Positions 3,181-30,556 of a stretch of DNA of 64,000 bases are shown here, piece after piece. Made by a program: the position numbers and the translations under genes. Positions within the stretch are counted from its first letter, which is position 1, and each line of letters opens with the position of its first letter. Location of the stretch: positions 1,738,501-1,802,500 of the forward strand of contig NZ_CP151943.1 of NCBI RefSeq assembly GCF_038592905.1. Reading direction: 5' to 3'. Origin of the DNA: Neobacillus sp. FSL H8-0543. GTDB taxonomy: Bacteria > Bacillota > Bacilli > Bacillales > Cytobacillaceae. Below the pieces are notes generated by a model. That model was not told the origin of the DNA. It was given only the letters and a program-made list of their open reading frames with translations, and made no database searches.

Positions 3181-3222
3181 TCCGCCTGAGGTGGACAGTG
3201 TCCACGAGTGGTGCCTGTCACC
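3181..3222. repeat. Family A repeat, copy 1 (after doxX copy 1)
   Basis: A partial copy with GTGGACAGTGTCCAC at 3191-3205 followed by the core GGTGCCTGTCACC at 3210-3222. It lies just beyond the terminator of the first DoxX gene. Confidence 0.8.
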
Positions 3223-16453: not shown

Positions 16454-16475
16454 AGCCAGGCAATTATGCCTGGCT
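16454..16475 (-). terminator. Terminator of the GGDEF-EAL-kinase fusion gene
   Basis: AGCCAGGCA/TGCCTGGCT stem overlapping the stop codon, with a T-run on the minus strand. Confidence 0.8.
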
Positions 16476-19400
16476 ATTTTGGTAATGTTACTTCAACGGT
16501 GGTTCCGTGGTTTTCTTTGCTTTGGAAGGTGATGGTTCCGTTGTGTTGTTTGATGATTCGGAAGGATGTGGTTAGGCCTAAACCAGTTCCTTTTTCCTTG
16601 TTGCTGTAGAAGGGTTCTCCTAGTCTTTGGACACGTTCCTCGCTTATTCCAATTCCATTGTCAGAAACCTTGATTGACAGGTAATCACTTTCTGTACTCA
16701 CACGGATCGTTATTCGGCCTTCAGAAATAATCGATTCGATACTATTCTTTATGATGTTAATAAATACTTGTTTTAGCTGGTTTGGATCACATATAATCGG
16801 TGGAATATCCTCGTCCATTTCTTTTGAAATCTGTATATTCATCAGGTTTGCTTCTGATCCCAGCAAGGTAATAACCTCGTTCAATAGGATAGGAATGTTC
16901 ACCAGGCTTGGTTTCATTTCTTGCGTCTTAGCAAGAGAAAGAAATTCTGTAATAATTTCCTCAATCCGGTTAAACTCACCAAGAATTACCTCAAAGTATT
17001 CCTCCTTAATGACGCCTCTTTGGAAAAGCTGGATAAAACCTTTAATCGCTGTAATCGGATTTCTTATTTCATGGGCTACACCTGCAGCTAGCTCGCCAAC
17101 GACCTGGAGCTTTTCTGCTTTCGCTAATTGTTCCTCAGCCCTTCTTTTCTCCGTAATATCTCTGCTTACGATAATCATATGCTCGACCTCGCCATCGTCT
17201 CCGATGACCGGTGTCCCCGAGCACTCCAGCAATTTCCAGTCTCCATTTTTATGCAAATAGCGCACTTCAGACTTAACGGGTGAATTTGTCGCAATCATTT
17301 GCTCGACCAGTGTTAAAAAGGAGGCATCATCATCGGGATGAACGTCCAAAAAAGAATGTCTGTCCATATAATAATCCTGTGGATACCCCAGCACAGCCTC
17401 ATGTGAAGGCGAGACATACATGGATTGGCCATTTCGATCAAGGACAGCAATTAAGTCTGTCATATTGTCAGCAATTAACCGGTAATTTTTCTGACTTTCT
17501 TCTAAATCCTTTTCCATCTGCTTCCGTTCGGTGATATCAATACAAGAGCCAATCACCTCAACGACCTCGCCGCCACGTTTAACAGGACTTAAGGCGGTAA
17601 AATAATGAATACTATTTACTTCATTTTCATAGGTTACGTATTCTTCGCCATTCCAGGCCCTTATATAAAACTCTTCCTTCTCTTCGGCCATTTCCTTTGG
17701 GAGAAATTCACATAACTCCTTGCCAACGATTTGAATCGGAGTCAGACCCAAACGATAGACGAGTTCACCATCACATAAAGAGTGAATGAATCGACCGTTC
17801 AGCATTTTATATTTAAAAATCATTCCTTGCTGCAGGCGGATGGTTTCATTTAATTCTCTTTGTGCTTGCCGGACCATTTCTTCGGCCCACATCCGTTCAT
17901 TCGTTTCCTCAGGAAGCCCAAATTCGTTAACGAGCGTCTGAATTTCACCTAGCTTTCCTTCAAGTTGCTCAGCAGGTAGTGGTCTCGTAAAGAAGTAACC
18001 CTGCCCCTCATCACAAAGGTATTGCTGTAAAAATAATAGTTGTTCCTTCGTTTCGATACCTTCACCGACCACATTCAGGTTTAAGTTATGAGCCATCGAA
18101 ATAATCGTTTTTACAATCGTTTCATCGTTAGGGTTTTGATGAATTTGTTTTACAAACGACTGGTCAATTTTCAATGTATCAATAGGAAATTGCCTTAAGT
18201 AATTCAATGAACTAAAACCGATACCAAAATCGTCAATACTAATGCGCACCCCAAGACGCTTAAGCTTTCTTAATGTGGTGATTGTACGATCAATATCTGC
18301 TGTCATGCTCTCAGTAATTTCTATTTCTAAATATTTAGGGTCCAGTTCTGTTTCCTGTAAAATCTTTTCTATCGTCGTTTCCAGGTTAGATAGACTAAAT
18401 TGTCGCGACGATAAATTAACCGAGACAACCGTCTCAAATCCCTTTTGGTGCCACTCCTTGTTTTGCTGACAGGCAGCCCTTAGCACCCACTCACCAATCG
18501 GAATAATTAACCCTGTTTCTTCCGCAATTGGAATAAAGGTTACTGGTGGTACCGATCCAAAAAGAGGATGAAACCAGCGAAGCAAGGCCTCGACACCGAC
18601 GATTTTGCCTGTTTTTAAATTTACCTTCGGCTGATAATATAGCTCTAGTTCATTACGTGCAATCGCTCGATGAAGCTCCATTTCTAATTTCAACGGATTG
18701 TGTAATAGGATATGAGTGTCTGATGAATAAAACTTAAAGTTGTTTTTCCCCGATTTCTTTGCCTGATACATCGCAAAATCAGCATGTTTAACTAATGTCT
18801 CAACCGATGTCCCATCCTCTGGAAAGACACTGATACCAATACTTGGAGAAGTAAAAATATCGTAGCTGTTTATGTTAAACGGCGACGAAAGGGCGTCTAA
18901 TATCCGTTTCGCTACTGTTGCTACAATCATTTGATTGACATTCGTTAATACAACAATAAACTCATCGCCACCCTGTCTGAAAACAATATCCGTTTCATAT
19001 AAAGAAGACTTCAGCCGTTTCGCCACTTCTTTTAAGAGCAAATCACCCATTTTATGGCCCAGACTGTCATTGATATTTTTAAAACGATCTAAATCAATAA
19101 ACAACAATGCCACACTTTCATTTTTATCAGAAGCATGGGCCAATTCGGTTGAGAGATGCTTACTCAGCATGTTTCTATTTGGAAGCCCGGTTAAATAATC
19201 ATGATAGGCCATATGTTCATTAGCTTTTTCCTTTAATACCTGTTTTGTCGTATCCGTAGAAATCCCAATAATACCCTCTATATTTCCATCCACGATGATT
19301 GGTATCAGCGTGTTATTTAAAAAAAGAATCGCTCCGTCCTTACAAAGAAAGGATATTTGAAAGTTCTGTGTCACTCCCTTTAGACATTGCTGAAAATAGT

Positions 19401-20013
19401 AGGAAGCTTTCTCTTTTTCTGGCGGATTAACAAGATCAAGAAAATGCAAAGACTGTTTAATTTTTGACCCGTTGTACCCGCTTAATTTTTCAGATGCAGT
19501 ATTACACCTTGTATAATAACCGTTTGTATCTAACGAATAAACGGCATTGGCACTTTGTTCAAATAGGGCACGGTAGCGCTGTTCGCTTTCGAGGAATTGT
19601 TCCTGGAGTTTCTTTTTTCCGGTTATATCCTGCCCCACGACCATTACTGCCGGTTTTCCGTTATAGGTAACCTTGGTGCCTGTTGTTTCCAGAAAAACCT
19701 CTTTCCCATCTAACGATAGTAGTTTACATTCGATTACCCCGCCACTCTCGTTGGGTAAGAGGTCCCTTTTTAGCTGTTGTGCAATTTTTGCACGAAATTC
19801 CGGACAAACTAGATCGTCTATGCCTTTGCCTATTAAACTAGTATCTCCCATACCTAAGGTTTTACTGGCTCTTTGATTAGCAAAAACAATTCTCCCCTCT
19901 TGATGAACAAATATAATCGTAGGAGTTTTGTCAATTAAATGAAGATATTGATTTCCGTCATCTGCCATCCGTGTTTTATCCACACCTGAATCTACTAAAT
20001 TATTAATGTTCAT
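16474..20013 (-). CDS. PAS-PAS-GGDEF-EAL-PAS-PAS-histidine kinase fusion
   Basis: About 1,179 residues, cytoplasmic, no membrane segment. Order (approximate residues): PAS 25-135; PAS 145-262; GGDEF 268-435 with intact RQGGDEF near 350; EAL 445-690 with EALLRW near 476, NLSSRQF, EITES, DDFGIGFSSL, LKIDQSF and GEGIE all present; PAS 735-832; PAS 843-957; HisKA 965-1030 with the phosphorylatable His in AAGVAHEIRNPITAIKGF near 981; HATPase_c 1065-1179 with N-box NIIKNSIES, DNGIGI and GTGLGL. The kinase core closely resembles Bacillus KinA-E-type sporulation kinases. It should therefore make and break c-di-GMP and also autophosphorylate. No response regulator gene adjoins, so it is an orphan kinase. 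Start ATG 20013 has GGTGAT upstream; GTG 20022 and ATG 20019 are alternatives. A structured leader precedes it. Confidence 0.85.
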   Translation of the reverse strand: MNINNLVDSGVDKTRMADDGNQYLHLIDKTPTIIFVHQEGRIVFANQRASKTLGMGDTSLIGKGIDDLVCPEFRAKIAQQLKRDLLPNESGGVIECKLLSLDGKEVFLETTGTKVTYNGKPAVMVVGQDITGKKKLQEQFLESEQRYRALFEQSANAVYSLDTNGYYTRCNTASEKLSGYNGSKIKQSLHFLDLVNPPEKEKASYYFQQCLKGVTQNFQISFLCKDGAILFLNNTLIPIIVDGNIEGIIGISTDTTKQVLKEKANEHMAYHDYLTGLPNRNMLSKHLSTELAHASDKNESVALLFIDLDRFKNINDSLGHKMGDLLLKEVAKRLKSSLYETDIVFRQGGDEFIVVLTNVNQMIVATVAKRILDALSSPFNINSYDIFTSPSIGISVFPEDGTSVETLVKHADFAMYQAKKSGKNNFKFYSSDTHILLHNPLKLEMELHRAIARNELELYYQPKVNLKTGKIVGVEALLRWFHPLFGSVPPVTFIPIAEETGLIIPIGEWVLRAACQQNKEWHQKGFETVVSVNLSSRQFSLSNLETTIEKILQETELDPKYLEIEITESMTADIDRTITTLRKLKRLGVRISIDDFGIGFSSLNYLRQFPIDTLKIDQSFVKQIHQNPNDETIVKTIISMAHNLNLNVVGEGIETKEQLLFLQQYLCDEGQGYFFTRPLPAEQLEGKLGEIQTLVNEFGLPEETNERMWAEEMVRQAQRELNETIRLQQGMIFKYKMLNGRFIHSLCDGELVYRLGLTPIQIVGKELCEFLPKEMAEEKEEFYIRAWNGEEYVTYENEVNSIHYFTALSPVKRGGEVVEVIGSCIDITERKQMEKDLEESQKNYRLIADNMTDLIAVLDRNGQSMYVSPSHEAVLGYPQDYYMDRHSFLDVHPDDDASFLTLVEQMIATNSPVKSEVRYLHKNGDWKLLECSGTPVIGDDGEVEHMIIVSRDITEKRRAEEQLAKAEKLQVVGELAAGVAHEIRNPITAIKGFIQLFQRGVIKEEYFEVILGEFNRIEEIITEFLSLAKTQEMKPSLVNIPILLNEVITLLGSEANLMNIQISKEMDEDIPPIICDPNQLKQVFINIIKNSIESIISEGRITIRVSTESDYLSIKVSDNGIGISEERVQRLGEPFYSNKEKGTGLGLTTSFRIIKQHNGTITFQSKENHGTTVEVTLPK

Positions 20014-20052
20014 CGCCATCACCGTTTATCCGTTTATTTGTATATAGAAAAA

Positions 20053-20074
20053 GACTATTCATGGGAGAATAGCC
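20053..20074 (-). terminator. Leader terminator upstream of the kinase fusion gene
   Basis: GACTATTC (20053-20060) pairs with GAATAGCC (20067-20074), followed by a T-run on the minus strand. An alternative hairpin, AGCCT...AGGCT (20071-20087), uses part of the same strand and could act as antiterminator. Confidence 0.6.
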
Positions 20075-20175
20075 TATTTTAAAGGCTCTCTCGGCAACAG
20101 GCTAGTAAGTTCTCCTGAACCCTAAACCCGTATGGCCTTCCCATTCTTGCCCTCGAAACGTTCCACGCTACTATT
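20075..20175 (-). ncRNA. Riboswitch-like structured leader (c-di-GMP-I-like 3' end, class uncertain)
   Basis: Between the predicted promoter (20191-20219) and the leader terminator, the minus strand reads in order: CGAGGGCAAGAATGG, AAGGCCATACGGGTTTAGGG, a GTTC-AGGA-GAAC hairpin, then AGCCTGTTGCCGAG. GGCAA and TTGCC can form a closing stem. The 3' part resembles the (A)GCCxGGTTGCCGA end and the GCC-ACGGG-TCTAA segment of GEMM (c-di-GMP-I) riboswitches, but the ACGCAAAG motif and the first tetraloop hairpin are missing. A terminator with an alternative pairing follows. I call it a structured regulatory leader; membership of a known class is unproven. Confidence 0.5.
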
Positions 20176-20190
20176 AATTATATATCATCT

Positions 20191-20219
20191 AGTATAAAGC
20201 TAATTTTCAATATTTACAA
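20191..20219 (-). promoter_or_regulatory. Sigma-A promoter of the kinase fusion gene
   Basis: On the minus strand TTGTAA (20214-20219), 17 bases, TATACT (20191-20196). It gives a leader of about 160 bases that contains the structured region. Confidence 0.65.
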
Positions 20220-24347: not shown

Positions 24348-24473
24348 TTTCCTGTTCACCGACACATTTCGACAATTTCCACTTTCTGCAAATGGTAAAA
24401 TTATTCCATAATCTTCAAGATCGAGAGATTTGTTCCAATTTTACATATCTTTTTTCATATAGGAGTGGCATTG

Positions 24474-26867
24474 ATGGCTTGGTTAGAAAGAAAAAGGCTA
24501 TTCATTTACTTTACGATACTATATATCCTTGGATATTATATCCTCCTCTACTTCAAAGAAGATTGGTCGAAAACACCAGGCGAAGCTGTTTTCTCAATAG
24601 CTACACCGCTTATTTCTTCTATTATTCTCTTTTTCATTTACAAACAACGTAAAACAAAAGATCATAGCTTTTGGCTGTTCCTCTCGCTAGGCTGCTTTAG
24701 TTTGGTAATCTTACATATAATCTCAAGCTATTATGAGAACCTGCTGCAAAAACCAGTTCCTAACTGGTCGGTTTTCTTCAACCTGCTTCCCGTAGTACTT
24801 TTTCTTACCGCCTTTATCGATAAAATTCTTCAAAGTGCTAAAAAACTGCACCTGATAAAATTCACCTTTGATATCTGCATTATTATGACGGTGGCAATTA
24901 CGTTTAGCTGGCGCTTTCTCATGGAAGATATCATTTCACAAAACAGTCTCACTGCCCTTTTTATACCAATTGGTGATTTGGTTCTCTTATTTGGTGCAAT
25001 CAGTTTCTACATAGGTCGTGAAGCGATTTTTCCTCCAAAGGTCTTATACTTATTGTTGGGAAGTTTATTCCTTCAAGTGATTGCAAATTCTACAGCTCTT
25101 TACATAAATAATACTAATTTAGAAAGTTTGCTAGTCCCATTGACCGAGCTTTCCCTTTTATTACTGGGACTTTCAGGAATATACACCCTTGGTGAAAACC
25201 ATGAAAACACAGCGAAGAAAAAAAGGGGCTATACTAAAAAGGACATTTTTTCATTAAGGCTATTGCTCCCGTATATCAGCGTAATCCTTTTATTTTTGTT
25301 AATGATCTCCCAGCACCAAGGTTCAACCGACTTAATCCTTGGCTCAACAGTTGCCATCCTGCTGGTTTTATCACGGCAAATTTTCACCTCCATAGAAAAT
25401 CAAACGGTGTTATTGAAGTATCATAACCTTACCGAGATACTGGAGCTGAAAATCGACGAAAGAACGGAAGAACTAAGTTCAAAGAATCACCAGCTTGTTA
25501 CTGCCGTACGGAAAATGAAGCAAATGGCCTATCATGATGTCTTGAGCGGCCTGCCAAATAGAAGAATGTTTTTAGAGCGGCTCATCAAGTCAATGGAAGA
25601 AGCAAAACGGAATAACTTTAAACTTGCGGTGATTTTCATCGATTTAGACCGTTTTAAAAATATTAATGATACCCTTGGCCATGATTTTGGCGACTTACTT
25701 TTAAAGCATGTTTCCTCAAAAATGGCAGAGAGTCTGCGTAAAATTGATACGATCTCCCGTCAAGGCGGTGATGAGTTTACGATTATCCTGAACAGAATCC
25801 GTGCGGAAGAGGATGTTGTTCCATTAATTCAACGGATGCAGTCAATCGTTGCCCAGCCTATCGTGATTAAGGACCAAGAGTTACATGTTTCGATGAGCAT
25901 CGGGATTGCCTTTTACCCAAAGGACGGAAAAAATACAGAAGAGCTTATGAAAAATGCCGACCTGGCGATGTATCGTGCAAAAGAAGAAGGAAGAGACAGG
26001 TACAAGTTTTATACGCACGATATGAACAAAAATATATCTAGAAAAGTGACACTAGAAAATGGGCTGCGCAAGGCGTTAAAGAATGGTGAATTCCTGCTTT
26101 ATTATCAACCGCAAGTAAATGCTAAAACGGGCGGGATTGTCGGGGTTGAAACGTTAATACGCTGGAATACTATGGAGGCAGGTATTGTTTTGCCAAGTGA
26201 ATTTATTCCCGTTGCTGAGGAGACCGGATTAATTATTCCTATAGGCGAATGGGTTCTAACCTCTGCATGTACTCAAGCAAAAATTTGGCACGAATCAGGG
26301 CATAACCAATTAAAAGTAGCGGTGAACCTGTCCCCTGTCCAATTCCAGCATGATAATTTGGTGCAAATGATTGCCTCGGTCCTAAAGAAAACTGGATTTA
26401 ACCCGCACTATTTAGAGCTGGAAATTACAGAAACAATTTCTTTTATTGATGCCGAAGAGGCCATTAAGAAAATGGATGCAATAAGGGAATTAGGGGTGCG
26501 AATTTCGATTGACGATTTCGGTACAGGGTATTCCTCGTTAATGTATTTAAAAAGATTCCCAATTAACACCTTAAAAATTGCCAAGCCTTTTATAACAGAC
26601 ATGACAACCAATCAAAAAGATCAGGCATTAGTCGCAACCATCATTTCCATGGCCCATAGCCTGGGACTCTCAGTCATTGCAGAGGGAATAGAAACCGAGC
26701 AACAATTCCTATCCCTGATAGAACTCCGATGCGACGTGATCCAAGGAGATCTATACAGCAAACCGCTAACCATCACCCAACTAAACGCCCTGCTCGAAAG
26801 CAGTGTTGAAGTAGCGGTATCACAAAGCAGTGGTGACAGGCACCAAAGTTTACTAATTGGAAACTAA
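24474..26867 (+). CDS. Membrane-bound GGDEF-EAL protein with a partly degenerate EAL domain
   Basis: About 797 residues. The N-terminal third (about 1-310) has around eight to nine membrane helices, a MASE-like sensor of no clear family. A short coiled segment precedes GGDEF (350-515) with an intact RQGGDEF near 431, so cyclase activity is expected. The EAL domain (525-780) has ETLIRW in place of EAL/EVLxRW, keeps NLSPVQF, EITET, DDFGTGYSSL and AEGIE, but reads LKIAKPF where active phosphodiesterases have LKIDxxF. The Asp to Ala change (codon 26580-26582) may impair c-di-GMP hydrolysis. The last 12 or so residues (SGDRHQSLLIGN) are encoded by a family A repeat core. Start ATG 24474 behind AGGAGTGG; GTG 24465 is weaker. 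Confidence 0.85.
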   Translation: MAWLERKRLFIYFTILYILGYYILLYFKEDWSKTPGEAVFSIATPLISSIILFFIYKQRKTKDHSFWLFLSLGCFSLVILHIISSYYENLLQKPVPNWSVFFNLLPVVLFLTAFIDKILQSAKKLHLIKFTFDICIIMTVAITFSWRFLMEDIISQNSLTALFIPIGDLVLLFGAISFYIGREAIFPPKVLYLLLGSLFLQVIANSTALYINNTNLESLLVPLTELSLLLLGLSGIYTLGENHENTAKKKRGYTKKDIFSLRLLLPYISVILLFLLMISQHQGSTDLILGSTVAILLVLSRQIFTSIENQTVLLKYHNLTEILELKIDERTEELSSKNHQLVTAVRKMKQMAYHDVLSGLPNRRMFLERLIKSMEEAKRNNFKLAVIFIDLDRFKNINDTLGHDFGDLLLKHVSSKMAESLRKIDTISRQGGDEFTIILNRIRAEEDVVPLIQRMQSIVAQPIVIKDQELHVSMSIGIAFYPKDGKNTEELMKNADLAMYRAKEEGRDRYKFYTHDMNKNISRKVTLENGLRKALKNGEFLLYYQPQVNAKTGGIVGVETLIRWNTMEAGIVLPSEFIPVAEETGLIIPIGEWVLTSACTQAKIWHESGHNQLKVAVNLSPVQFQHDNLVQMIASVLKKTGFNPHYLELEITETISFIDAEEAIKKMDAIRELGVRISIDDFGTGYSSLMYLKRFPINTLKIAKPFITDMTTNQKDQALVATIISMAHSLGLSVIAEGIETEQQFLSLIELRCDVIQGDLYSKPLTITQLNALLESSVEVAVSQSSGDRHQSLLIGN
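26832..26844. repeat. Family A core, copy 8, forming the 3' end of a gene
   Basis: GGTGACAGGCACC lies in frame at the end of the GGDEF-EAL gene and encodes GDRH; the stop codon follows 20 bases later. Confidence 0.8.
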
Positions 26868-28291: not shown

Positions 28292-30391
28292 TTATGACAG
28301 CAGAGCTTTTGGACCAACAGAACCGTCGCCCTGGTTCTTAAAAAACTCTCCGACCTTATCAACGGGGGTAGGTTTGCTAAAGTAGTAACCTTGCATGTTG
28401 TGACAACTTAGGCTACATAGGTAGTGATATTGTTCAAGTGTTTCTACGCCCTCGGCTACTACTTTCATTCCCAGGTTTCTCCCCATTGCGACTAACGCCC
28501 GACACACAGCTTGCTGATTTTTATTACCCAGCCCATGGATAAAGGATTTATCTATTTTTATCGTATTAAAGGGGTATTGTACAAGATAGCTTATTGAAGA
28601 ATAGCCTATCCCAAAATCATCTAAAATGATATCAATCCCGAAATCCTGTAATTTTTTTATTATAGTCAGCGTTTTTTCAACATCTGTCATTGCTGTTCGT
28701 TCAGTAATTTCAATTTTTAATAAGCGAGGCGGCAGCTTATACCGGTCCAATGTATCTTTGATATTCTGGATAAAGGACCCTCGTTGAATATGTCTGGCAG
28801 CGATATTGACGGAGATATAAAACGGTGGCAACCCTTGATCAGCCCAAATGCGCCGTTGCTTGCATGCCGTTGATAATACCCAGTTACTTATCGTAATGAT
28901 TAAATCTGTCTCTTCTGCAATAGGAATAAATTCCCCAGGAGAAATTTGTCCCAAAATAGGGTGCTTCCAGCGTAAAAGTGCCTCTAAACCGATGATTTCC
29001 TTTTGATAAACATCGACAATCGGCTGATACTCTAGATACAACTCGTTTTGTTCAATCGCTTTATTAAGCGATTGCTCAAGGAGCAGCTTTCTTGAAAGCG
29101 ACTTAGCCATTTCCGCTTGATACGGCTGAATGCCTCCTCCATTCTCCTTCGCAAGATACATCGCTTGATCAGCCTTCTGAATTAAGGCATCTGGCTCCTG
29201 GTCATGATCAGGGTAAATACTTATTCCAATACTTGCCCGCAGCACAAATACATGCTCCTTAATCCGTATAGGTTCGGCAATTACCTGATTCAGCCTCGCT
29301 GCCATTTCCGTTATTACTTGTCGGCTTTTCACCGATTTAAGCAAAACGACAAATTCATCCCCGCCTTGACGCGAGATGATATCATCTGACCGTAAGCTGG
29401 CTCTTAACCGGTCGGCAATAATTTGCAGCACCTTGTCACCCATTTTATGACCCAGTGAATCATTTATATATTTAAAACGGTCCAGATCCAAAAATACTAT
29501 TCCGACTATTTGGTCCAGTTCTTGTGCCTCCCGTATCAACTGGTGAAGATCATCATCAAGTTTCCTTCTGTTCGGCAATCCTGTCAAAGAATCATGATAA
29601 GCTAAATAGGTTAACTCTTCCTCTGCCTTTTTCCTTTCTGTTATATCGATAACAATTCGGTCAAGCCTGATTGGGTCATTCGTCACCCCATCAAAAATAG
29701 GAATGATGAAATCAGAAATCCACCTATATTCCCCATTTTTCCGAATAATTCGGTATTCCTGAAGTACAGCTTGGCCTTTTGTTAATAGCTCCCTCTGCTT
29801 AAAAACAACATATTGATCAATGGGATGGATTATTTTTTCACCCAAATAATTATCAAAAAGAAACTCCTCCTCAGAGTAACCAAAAATGGATTGGCATACA
29901 GGAGAGATGGAAATAGTTCCCAGTGTGTGAACATCAAGCGACCACAAGCAAATATCTGTATTCGTAAAATTCTCATACCCATTTCCCGGTATAGCAGGAG
30001 TTGCTTCCAGTCCTTGACTTGCATCAATAATAAATCCGCAAATCCCCTGGATCTGCCCGCCAATTTCCACTGGGGTTGACAAAATATTAGCCATCATCCG
30101 AGAACCGCTGCTATGCGTAATCGGAATCTGAAAGCTTTTCCTCTCACCCTTAAGAACGGCATTTACATGATTAATCGTTTTCCCAATCCCATCCTCTTGT
30201 AAAAGTGAAAGGAAATTCCGATGATTTGCTTTATCCCTTTTATATCCTGTTAACCTTTGTGCAGCCCGATTCGAAAAAACAATATTACCTTCTAAATCTA
30301 GAATATAACAAGGCAGTGGAATACCCTTAAGTAATGGCTCACATTGATCAATGAACAAACTTAAATCAGACTTCTTAATCCCATTCGTCAT
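28292..30391 (-). CDS. PAS-PAS-GGDEF-EAL cyclic-di-GMP signalling protein
   Basis: About 699 residues, soluble. Two PAS domains (about 15-125 and 140-250, the second ending with the PAC-type motif LDRIVIDITERKKAEEEL). GGDEF (255-425) has an intact RQGGDEF near 341. EAL (435-685) has LEALLRW near 470, EITER, LDDFGIGYSSI, IKIDKSFI and AEGVE, so the catalytic metal ligands look complete; the NxSxxQ motif is altered to NIAARHIQ. A bifunctional or signal-switched c-di-GMP enzyme is likely. I place the start at ATG 30389-30391 behind GGAAGGGG; an upstream in-frame ATG at 30556 adds 55 residues of unlikely sequence. Monocistronic. Confidence 0.85.
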   Translation of the reverse strand: MTNGIKKSDLSLFIDQCEPLLKGIPLPCYILDLEGNIVFSNRAAQRLTGYKRDKANHRNFLSLLQEDGIGKTINHVNAVLKGERKSFQIPITHSSGSRMMANILSTPVEIGGQIQGICGFIIDASQGLEATPAIPGNGYENFTNTDICLWSLDVHTLGTISISPVCQSIFGYSEEEFLFDNYLGEKIIHPIDQYVVFKQRELLTKGQAVLQEYRIIRKNGEYRWISDFIIPIFDGVTNDPIRLDRIVIDITERKKAEEELTYLAYHDSLTGLPNRRKLDDDLHQLIREAQELDQIVGIVFLDLDRFKYINDSLGHKMGDKVLQIIADRLRASLRSDDIISRQGGDEFVVLLKSVKSRQVITEMAARLNQVIAEPIRIKEHVFVLRASIGISIYPDHDQEPDALIQKADQAMYLAKENGGGIQPYQAEMAKSLSRKLLLEQSLNKAIEQNELYLEYQPIVDVYQKEIIGLEALLRWKHPILGQISPGEFIPIAEETDLIITISNWVLSTACKQRRIWADQGLPPFYISVNIAARHIQRGSFIQNIKDTLDRYKLPPRLLKIEITERTAMTDVEKTLTIIKKLQDFGIDIILDDFGIGYSSISYLVQYPFNTIKIDKSFIHGLGNKNQQAVCRALVAMGRNLGMKVVAEGVETLEQYHYLCSLSCHNMQGYYFSKPTPVDKVGEFFKNQGDGSVGPKALLS

Positions 30392-30556
30392 AAAATACCC
30401 CTTCCGTCCTGTTACCATAAAGCTAGAATATAATAACTTAAAGCCAAATACAGCAGAAAAGTGAACAATTATTCGACAATTTCCTGACAACTGAGATGAA
30501 TAGTTTTTTGTCTTTGAAAGGGGCTGGATAAGGAGGCAAGCTGTTAATATGTGCAA

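Follow-up and report, generated by a model that had tools for sequence, protein, structure and literature searches.

A c-di-GMP phosphodiesterase-like protein joined in one frame to a KinA-type histidine kinase in Neobacillus

The histidine kinases KinA to KinE of Bacillus subtilis resemble the protein described here in their HisKA-HATPase type, their orphan genes, their PAS input and, for KinA and KinE, the specificity residues TAGFQL. To our knowledge none of the five carries a GGDEF or an EAL domain, whereas in this protein the kinase is preceded by some 690 residues of PAS-PAS-GGDEF-EAL and by two further PAS domains. Table 1 of PMC6136694 lists KinA, KinC and KinE as containing PAS domains. 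The tandem GGDEF-EAL phosphodiesterases MorA, MucR, PA0575 and DosP have the GGDEF-EAL order in common with this protein and are the nearest solved relatives of that part (in structural alignments, 44-49% identity over EAL to MucR and MorA, and 45% over GGDEF-EAL to PA0575), but their best-scoring stretches end by residue 694 and leave PAS3-PAS4-kinase uncovered. The trigger enzyme YciR (PdeR) of Escherichia coli shares the logic proposed below, in which occupancy of the EAL domain controls a partner; the partners of YciR are separate proteins, while here the partner would lie in cis.

Histidine kinases have been linked to c-di-GMP in other lineages. SgmT of Myxococcus xanthus is an orphan histidine kinase that has a GGDEF domain in the same chain and binds c-di-GMP (PMC3509222); according to the excerpt of that article, it differs in that its GGDEF domain is C-terminal and sequesters the protein, in having a receiver and a GAF domain, and in its partner, which is DigR and not Spo0F, and the excerpt mentions no EAL domain. 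In Caulobacterales and Rhizobiales, EAL proteins with HisKA, HATPase, HAMP and Hpt domains have been reported (PMC9756655), which, as here, join EAL and kinase in one chain; these are proteins of Alphaproteobacteria with an Hpt/HAMP context, and the extract of that source describes neither a PAS-PAS spacer nor a Spo0-type kinase. The kinase activities of CckA and ShkA of Caulobacter are set by c-di-GMP, which switches CckA from kinase to phosphatase when bound and is bound by ShkA through a pseudo-receiver; the partial text of the source mentions an EAL domain for neither (PMC10333796). For the present architecture in Bacillales we found no description in the open-licence full-text literature, as judged by titles and the starts of abstracts.

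The gene and its frame

The window, by which we mean the whole stretch of 64,000 nucleotides analysed from Neobacillus sp. FSL H8-0543, contains a gene at 16474..20022 on the minus strand that encodes 1182 amino acids in one uninterrupted open frame; frame, Pfam matches and homologues support the domain order PAS-PAS-GGDEF-EAL-PAS-PAS-HisKA-HATPase. The start codon is GTG, with further ATG codons at positions 2 and 4. A first-pass annotation had given the interval as 16474..20013, which is amended here: its end is the ATG of codon 4, the frame extends to 20022, and it is read from the minus strand, the plus-strand translation of the same interval being full of stops. The GGDEF, EAL and HisKA/HATPase motifs quoted in that annotation were all recovered in the one minus-strand frame, and its four PAS domains correspond to four PAS_4 stretches (Pfam) and four TIGR00229 stretches.

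That sequencing or assembly had joined two separate genes is exceedingly improbable, and we found no point in its favour. Against it stand the frame itself, in which the genome search found no stop, the placement of the window within a single 5.3-Mb contig, full-length homologues of 88% identity in other records (P0001, P0002 and L036), and a paralogue in the same genome (L002; 1053 aa, 55% identity) that has the same order with a single PAS ahead of GGDEF. Because of these homologues and the paralogue, chance and artefact are excluded, and at the level of sequence the fusion is real with near certainty.

The 5' leader (20023..20200, minus strand) is 82% identical in sequence comparison to the leader of the 88% relative L036, the one homologous leader found; a DNA search of 60 genomes gave, outside the genome itself, matches that were short throughout, the best one spanning 36 bases (E 9e-4). 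With regard to a possible riboswitch, no Rfam match at gathering was found in the window; the leader and that of L036 matched Rfam only far below the family cut-offs, and the folding z of the leader was -1.47.

Active sites and the likely phosphorelay partner

The GGDEF domain (residues 272-428; 18739..19209, minus strand; Pfam 5.3e-52) has its active-site motif intact at 351-355, while the position of the RxxD inhibitory site reads YETD. An RxxD site is common in GGDEF cyclases and not obligatory; it is present in 5 of the 82 GGDEF-bearing proteins among 90 de-duplicated fused relatives. In the EAL domain (residues 449-681; 17980..18678, minus strand; Pfam 1.5e-72), 11 of 11 checked catalytic and metal positions are intact (Q464, E478, R482, N536, E571, D597, D598, K618, E654, E657 and Q674). 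The roles of these positions, as of the GGDEF motif, H984 and the N, G1 and G2 boxes, are presumably those known in general for the families. The entries returned by a second structural search were of GGDEF/EAL proteins throughout, so that it covers the GGDEF-EAL half. The initial proposal that one protein both makes and breaks down c-di-GMP thus agrees with the two intact active sites; equal activities are doubtful, given the missing RxxD site and a GGDEF domain that some fused relatives lack (8 of the 90) or have in a non-canonical form. As these fused relatives all keep an EAL domain, phosphodiesterase is the likelier net activity, and we predict it as the probable one.

In the kinase half, HisKA (residues 976-1034; 16921..17097, minus strand; Pfam 1.7e-14) carries the phospho-His H984 (codon 17071-17073), and HATPase_c (residues 1079-1181; 16480..16788, minus strand; Pfam 1.3e-26) follows; H984 and the N, G1 and G2 boxes are all intact. 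The six partner-choice residues, at H+7, 8, 11, 12, 14 and 15, read TAGFQL, the same residues as in KinA and KinE (Table 1, PMC6136694). The gene is that of an orphan kinase, with the nearest listed receiver 89.7 kb away and no receiver gene in the 17-kb stretch around it; of 20 fused loci fetched, 19 likewise have none, the exception being L149, which has one nearby.

The genome as a whole separates its kinases in the same manner. It has 28 HisKA matches, 23 of them with an H-box readable by the search pattern; ten of the 23 are separated by 7.9 kb or more from every one of 39 receiver domains listed down to E 0.001, and nine of these ten have G-F-Q at positions 3-5, as against none of the other 13, which lie at most 2.3 kb from a receiver. 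The ten orphans, including this kinase and its paralogue, score 144-214 bits with the KinD model, the next kinase 108. The full protein scores 189.6 bits with the KinD equivalog NF053867, below the curated cut-off of 775 bits, and KinB ranks first among the solved relatives of the kinase part. Spo0F is encoded in the genome (its best PDB matches are Spo0F, 1.4e-62), as are a Spo0B-type domain and Spo0A_C, both over cut-off.

A sporulation-type kinase, as originally suggested, is therefore borne out by the intact HisKA/HATPase, the orphan gene and the specificity residues identical to those of KinA and KinE, and Spo0F likewise stands as a possible partner, all three relay proteins being encoded. 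Since TAGFQL also occurs in other orphan kinases of the genome, it marks a type of partner and not a measured transfer; with that reading, Spo0F as phosphotransfer partner is likely and well supported by sequence. The kinase might instead phosphorylate another receiver, such as an orphan regulator of motility or matrix encoded far away. Among NCBIfam models the kinase part scores best with AtoS (223 bits, above KinD with 192), and 38 receiver domains exceed the cut-off in this genome, several of them distant from HisKA kinases; the TAGFQL residues, the sharp separation of orphan from paired kinases and the presence of Spo0F, Spo0B and Spo0A nevertheless make such a pathway quite unlikely.

Linkers, distribution and turnover of modules

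Two of the four TIGR00229 stretches lie within residues 1-257, where that match and the strand order in a structure model place PAS1 (about residues 24-132; 19627..19953, minus strand), and where TIGR00229 and the model place PAS2 (about residues 146-257; 19252..19587, minus strand), followed by a helix, 259-273, into GGDEF. Behind EAL, a linker with model helices 691-701 and 705-731 (17830..17952, minus strand), also marked by its conserved spacing, leads to PAS3 (about residues 734-829; 17536..17823, minus strand) and PAS4 (about residues 847-955; 17158..17484, minus strand), both supported by Pfam, TIGR00229 and the model; a 45-residue helix, 957-1001 (17020..17154, minus strand), whose inter-domain placement in the model is uncertain, then runs from PAS4 to the phosphoacceptor helix. 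In the model, helices run unbroken across the EAL-PAS3, PAS3-PAS4 and PAS4-HisKA joints; its domain placement is unreliable because the pTM is 0.38.

The spacing of this chain is close to invariant. Among 107 fused proteins, selected for carrying both PAS domains and with near-copies included, the distance from the EAL Gln to PAS3 is 60 in 106, and that from the EAL Gln to the phospho-His is 309-311 residues in all 107, as in all 17 representatives below 60% identity; set aside were six named rows (copies of the query, its 88% relative, or partial) and rows lacking either EAL or a PAS3-PAS4 match over 225 residues. Shorter EAL-His spacings, of 69-217 residues, occur in 11 of the 126 EAL-plus-HisKA proteins measured (one further protein was unmeasurable). 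As proof of mechanical coupling the fixed spacing is weakened, because kinase-less relatives keep a near-identical EAL-PAS4 spacing (280-282 in 29 of 31 measurable).

The fusion, whose two halves the first-pass annotation described as usually separate, is not a one-off: EAL-PAS-PAS-kinase in one frame was matched in 19 of 397 genomes of the order, and the fusion is shared by many soil bacilli, while in a sample of 398 genomes of the phylum the match was confined to the window's own genome. After 43 near-copies were dropped from 186 proteins, 90 have EAL and both kinase domains. All 90 keep the phospho-His and 74 have G-F-Q, from which 16 depart; in a tabulation of 100 proteins that have both kinase domains, none lacks the His or the second Asn of the N box. 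This last conservation, together with the two diverged and intact copies in this genome, argues against lineage-specific domain shuffling without special function, that is, a c-di-GMP protein with an often-lost kinase tail; the tail is often missing or decayed, and just those 19 of the 397 genomes of the order have the architecture, but we hold that account to be very improbable.

The EAL residues are fully intact in 75 of the 90 fused proteins as against 48 of 48 kinase-less relatives (Fisher p 0.0013), and the 15 with changed residues imply that hydrolysis is not required in every member. In a 76-row tree (drawn without ten further named rows and without rows of 80% identity or more that agreed in kinase state) all 12 EAL-altered rows are kinase-bearing, with at least nine changes. 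Relaxation of EAL once a kinase is attached is suggestive only, because the rows are related and an independent-pairs test, with six pairs, lacked power.

Kinase and GGDEF have been gained or lost repeatedly. On the tree, kinase presence changes 12 times, at least six of them forced by strong branches, and GGDEF five times; some kinase-less rows may be cut by contig ends, as in P0090, which lies on a 3.2-kb contig. Stand-alone halves occur as PAS-PAS-kinase (L124) and as EAL-PAS-PAS (L125 and L130), and five proteins have lost HATPase, four of them the His as well, with EAL and GGDEF intact. A kinase remnant frameshifted off behind kinase-less relatives was considered and rejected: tblastn of the kinase part (E up to 1) against 19 kinase-less loci, some of them the same place twice and each with about 1.5 kb or more on either side, gave no match, while the positive control L002 matched, so that the tails are gone, and not frameshifted off, within about 1.5 kb.

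Such coming and going of modules, with the stand-alone halves, the tree changes and the HATPase-less proteins, would suit an arrangement of two outputs without internal gating, in which the PAS domains drive the c-di-GMP enzyme and the Spo0-type kinase independently and one signal shifts both. The near-invariant spacing counts against it, weakly in view of the kinase-less relatives, as does the fact that some fused proteins with altered EAL or GGDEF still keep the kinase residues, as would follow if the kinase used these domains as its sensors. On balance we think two ungated outputs rather unlikely.

A possible c-di-GMP entry into the Spo0 phosphorelay

In the reading that we prefer, to which we would give about an even chance, one chain combines a c-di-GMP phosphodiesterase under the control of PAS domains with a KinA-type kinase that feeds the Spo0 phosphorelay. 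Signals at PAS1-PAS2 would set the state of the GGDEF-EAL pair, in which EAL would hydrolyse c-di-GMP and GGDEF, having an active site without the inhibitory site, would either bind GTP and serve as an activator or be a cyclase of low activity. The state of EAL, with substrate bound or in turnover, could then be relayed to the phosphoacceptor bundle by way of the helices at 691-731, PAS3, the helix at 831-853, PAS4 and the helix at 957-1001, making EAL a "trigger enzyme" for the kinase of its own chain, and phosphate from H984 would pass to Spo0F, Spo0B and Spo0A. Gating of the kinase by c-di-GMP in this way is a slightly less than even proposition, and its direction, with low c-di-GMP favouring the kinase and high c-di-GMP restraining it, is doubtful. 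Tentatively, we suggest a trigger enzyme in cis, in which the c-di-GMP-occupied catalytic EAL domain sets a KinA-type kinase and gives direct, single-molecule entry into Spo0F-Spo0B-Spo0A; in some branches the EAL/GGDEF pair has lost catalytic residues and may have become a pure sensor of c-di-GMP or GTP for the kinase.

In Clostridioides difficile, c-di-GMP lowers sporulation by a route that PMC8653836 describes as unidentified, and according to PMC5552956 KinA has no confirmed signal. With a KinA/KinE-type kinase joined to an intact phosphodiesterase, a direct link to c-di-GMP becomes testable with one purified protein and Spo0F, and the family supplies natural comparisons in its EAL-altered kinase-bearers, its GGDEF-less and decayed-kinase members, and its stand-alone halves.

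Domain architecture and surroundings of the fused gene

The minus-strand gene at 16474-20022 is a single open frame of 1182 aa that, by Pfam and TIGR models, encodes PAS1, PAS2, GGDEF (residues 272-428), EAL (449-681), PAS3, PAS4, HisKA (976-1034) and HATPase_c (1079-1181), and every catalytic motif named in the first-pass annotation was found in that one frame. All 11 EAL residues checked are intact, the GGDEF motif and the His, N, G1 and G2 boxes of the kinase part are complete, and the inhibitory-site position of the GGDEF domain reads YETD, not RxxD. In a structure prediction based on 43 aligned sequences (mean pLDDT 81, pTM 0.38, with unreliable relative domain placement), helices 691-701 and 705-731 bridge EAL to PAS3, helix 831-853 bridges PAS3 to PAS4, and PAS4 runs into the kinase through a 45-residue helix (957-1001).

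An artefactual joining of two genes, the objection that accompanied the first-pass annotation, is ruled out: judged from sequence, the fusion is real, because a single 5.3-Mb contig contains the whole window, the same genome encodes a paralogue, and the protein database holds two full-length homologues 88% identical to this protein. The paralogue (3565839-3568679 of the genome by genome search; 55% over residues 234-1181) is 1053 aa long and contains three PAS_4 stretches besides GGDEF, EAL, HisKA and HATPase; one PAS precedes its GGDEF, hence one PAS fewer than in the protein of 16474-20022. A Neobacillus metagenome bin also carries an 88% copy of the gene, in which the leader is conserved too. 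This 178-base leader (20023-20200, minus strand) is able to fold and shows higher conservation with the 88% relative, L036, than does the adjoining upstream spacer; it gave no Rfam match over the cut-off, and no homologue was found besides that of L036.

The fused gene is the first of three GGDEF-EAL genes clustered in about 14 kb. The second (24465-26867, plus strand, 800 aa) has a long hydrophobic N-terminal part and no kinase domain by Pfam, and the third (28292-30556, minus strand, 754 aa), identified by genome search, reads through EAL to its end. GGTGCCTGTCACC, a dispersed repeat element, occurs 11 times in the window with at most one mismatch, against 0.04 expected by shuffling; the 13-base copies, on both strands, lie at 3210, 4812, 7193, 7879, 7895, 15661, 16344, 16411, 20821, 22252 and 26832, two of them just behind the fused gene.

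Distribution and turnover of modules

A search of 397 genomes drawn from the order, with the EAL-PAS-PAS-kinase part as query (E <= 1e-110), matched 39 genomes, 19 of which (own genome included, ten family codes) carry it in one frame over query residues 1-3 to 737-738; in a twentieth, G231, the query matched as two pieces within one 1121-aa frame, and the remaining matches were partial. In a phylum sample of 398 genomes, two reached E <= 1e-90, namely G120, with a PAS-kinase piece only, and the own genome. Homologues with EAL and kinase are named from Neobacillus, Niallia, Peribacillus, Domibacillus, Halalkalibacter, Mesobacillus, Psychrobacillus and others. The database names listed for the Bacillaceae proteins are generic ('EAL domain-containing protein', 'PAS domain S-box protein', 'histidine kinase').

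Relatives include GGDEF-less EAL-PAS-PAS-kinase proteins (e.g. L021, L030), GGDEF-EAL-PAS-PAS proteins without the kinase (L017-L020), stand-alone EAL-PAS-PAS (L125, L130) and stand-alone PAS-PAS-kinase (L124). L124 together with L125 or L130 resembles the C-terminal two thirds of the fused protein, and in L127 and L129 EAL-PAS-PAS precedes GGDEF, reversing the usual tandem. A 76-row tree built from EAL-PAS3-PAS4 calls for 12 changes in kinase presence, at least 6 of them on strong branches, and for 5 in GGDEF presence, counts that cannot separate gain from loss.

Removing near-copies reduced 186 rows to 143, of which 90 have both kinase domains and 48 are kinase-less. Among the 90, the phospho-His is present in all and EAL is fully intact (11/11) in 75; GGDEF is absent from 8 and reads GGDEF in 54, SGDEF in 19 and otherwise in 9 of the remaining 82, five of which have RxxD. 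Before de-duplication, the second Asn of the N-box was present in 100 of 100 tabulated proteins with both kinase domains. In kinase-less relatives EAL is intact in 48/48 and RxxD is found in 8. Proteins with both kinase domains thus retain kinase residues while their c-di-GMP parts sometimes degrade, which fits a role of the latter partly as input to the kinase; a tree-aware test of EAL decay against kinase presence had no power. The kinase can be the decaying part too: five proteins (P0038, P0066, P0074, P0077, P0082) keep a HisKA stretch and intact EAL and GGDEF motifs, and since HATPase is gone in all five and the His is replaced by Gln or Tyr in four, they appear to be decayed former kinases behind an intact GGDEF-EAL.

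Candidate partner of the kinase

The first-pass annotation had suggested possible phosphotransfer towards Spo0F/Spo0A. Davidson and others (Table 1, PMC6136694) list six partner-choice residues as TAGFQL for KinA and KinE, TVGFQL for KinB, TSGFQI for KinC and TGGFQL for KinD. In our own mapping of these positions (phospho-His +7, +8, +11, +12, +14, +15), which reproduces that table's pattern, the window kinase reads TAGFQL, as do KinA and KinE, and the paralogue TSGFQL. G-F-Q at positions 3-5 is found in 74 of 90 de-duplicated fused kinases. The own genome has 28 HisKA matches, 23 with an H-box readable by pattern: ten lie at least 7.9 kb from any of 39 listed receivers, with G-F-Q in nine; the remaining 13 have a receiver no more than 2.3 kb away, with G-F-Q in none; and the five unread each lie within 1.4 kb of a receiver. 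The 17 kb surrounding the window gene hold no receiver gene, nor do 19 of 20 fetched fused loci (paralogue included; one just 6 kb long), L149 being the sole exception. As a check, the detector was applied to 27 kinase loci of 3.2 kb from the own genome; it found receivers in 13 of them (one inside the kinase itself) and in none of the ten orphan loci. Ten orphan Kin-like kinases compare with five listed for B. subtilis in that table, and two of the ten carry GGDEF-EAL. Spo0F (best PDB matches, 1.4e-62), a Spo0B-type domain and Spo0A are all encoded. One result counts against a putative Spo0F partner: for the kinase part, KinD scores lower than the general AtoS model.

Proposed working and relation to known systems

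The state of the GGDEF-EAL pair is probably controlled by PAS1-PAS2. Among solved structures, tandem GGDEF-EAL enzymes such as MorA, MucR, PA0575 (with bound GTP, by its entry title) and DosP come closest to this pair. Net c-di-GMP breakdown seems likelier than net synthesis, because EAL is intact and GGDEF lacks the inhibitory site. The kinase would then receive the EAL state by way of the helices, PAS3 and PAS4. Among proteins selected because they have both PAS domains, near-copies counted, EAL-Gln and phospho-His are 309-311 residues apart in 107 of 107, as in 17/17 representatives under 60% identity, and the PAS4 DIT motif lies exactly 29 from the His in all 107. This constancy fits a rigid chain and is no proof of coupling, because EAL-PAS4 spacing is similar in kinase-less relatives and the linker is shorter in 11 of 126 EAL-plus-HisKA proteins. 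Low c-di-GMP would favour phosphate flow to Spo0A, a direction borrowed from C. difficile, in which c-di-GMP lowers sporulation (PMC8653836).

Proteins that combine EAL with kinase domains have been described in Caulobacterales and Rhizobiales (PMC9756655), a kinase-GGDEF combination is mentioned for Geobacter (PMC1183210), SgmT is an orphan kinase that binds c-di-GMP (PMC3509222), and CckA and ShkA respond to it (PMC10333796); none of them is presented there as a Spo0-type kinase. Among open-licence full-text papers, we found none describing this architecture in Bacillales. The fusion makes a direct link from c-di-GMP to Spo0 testable.
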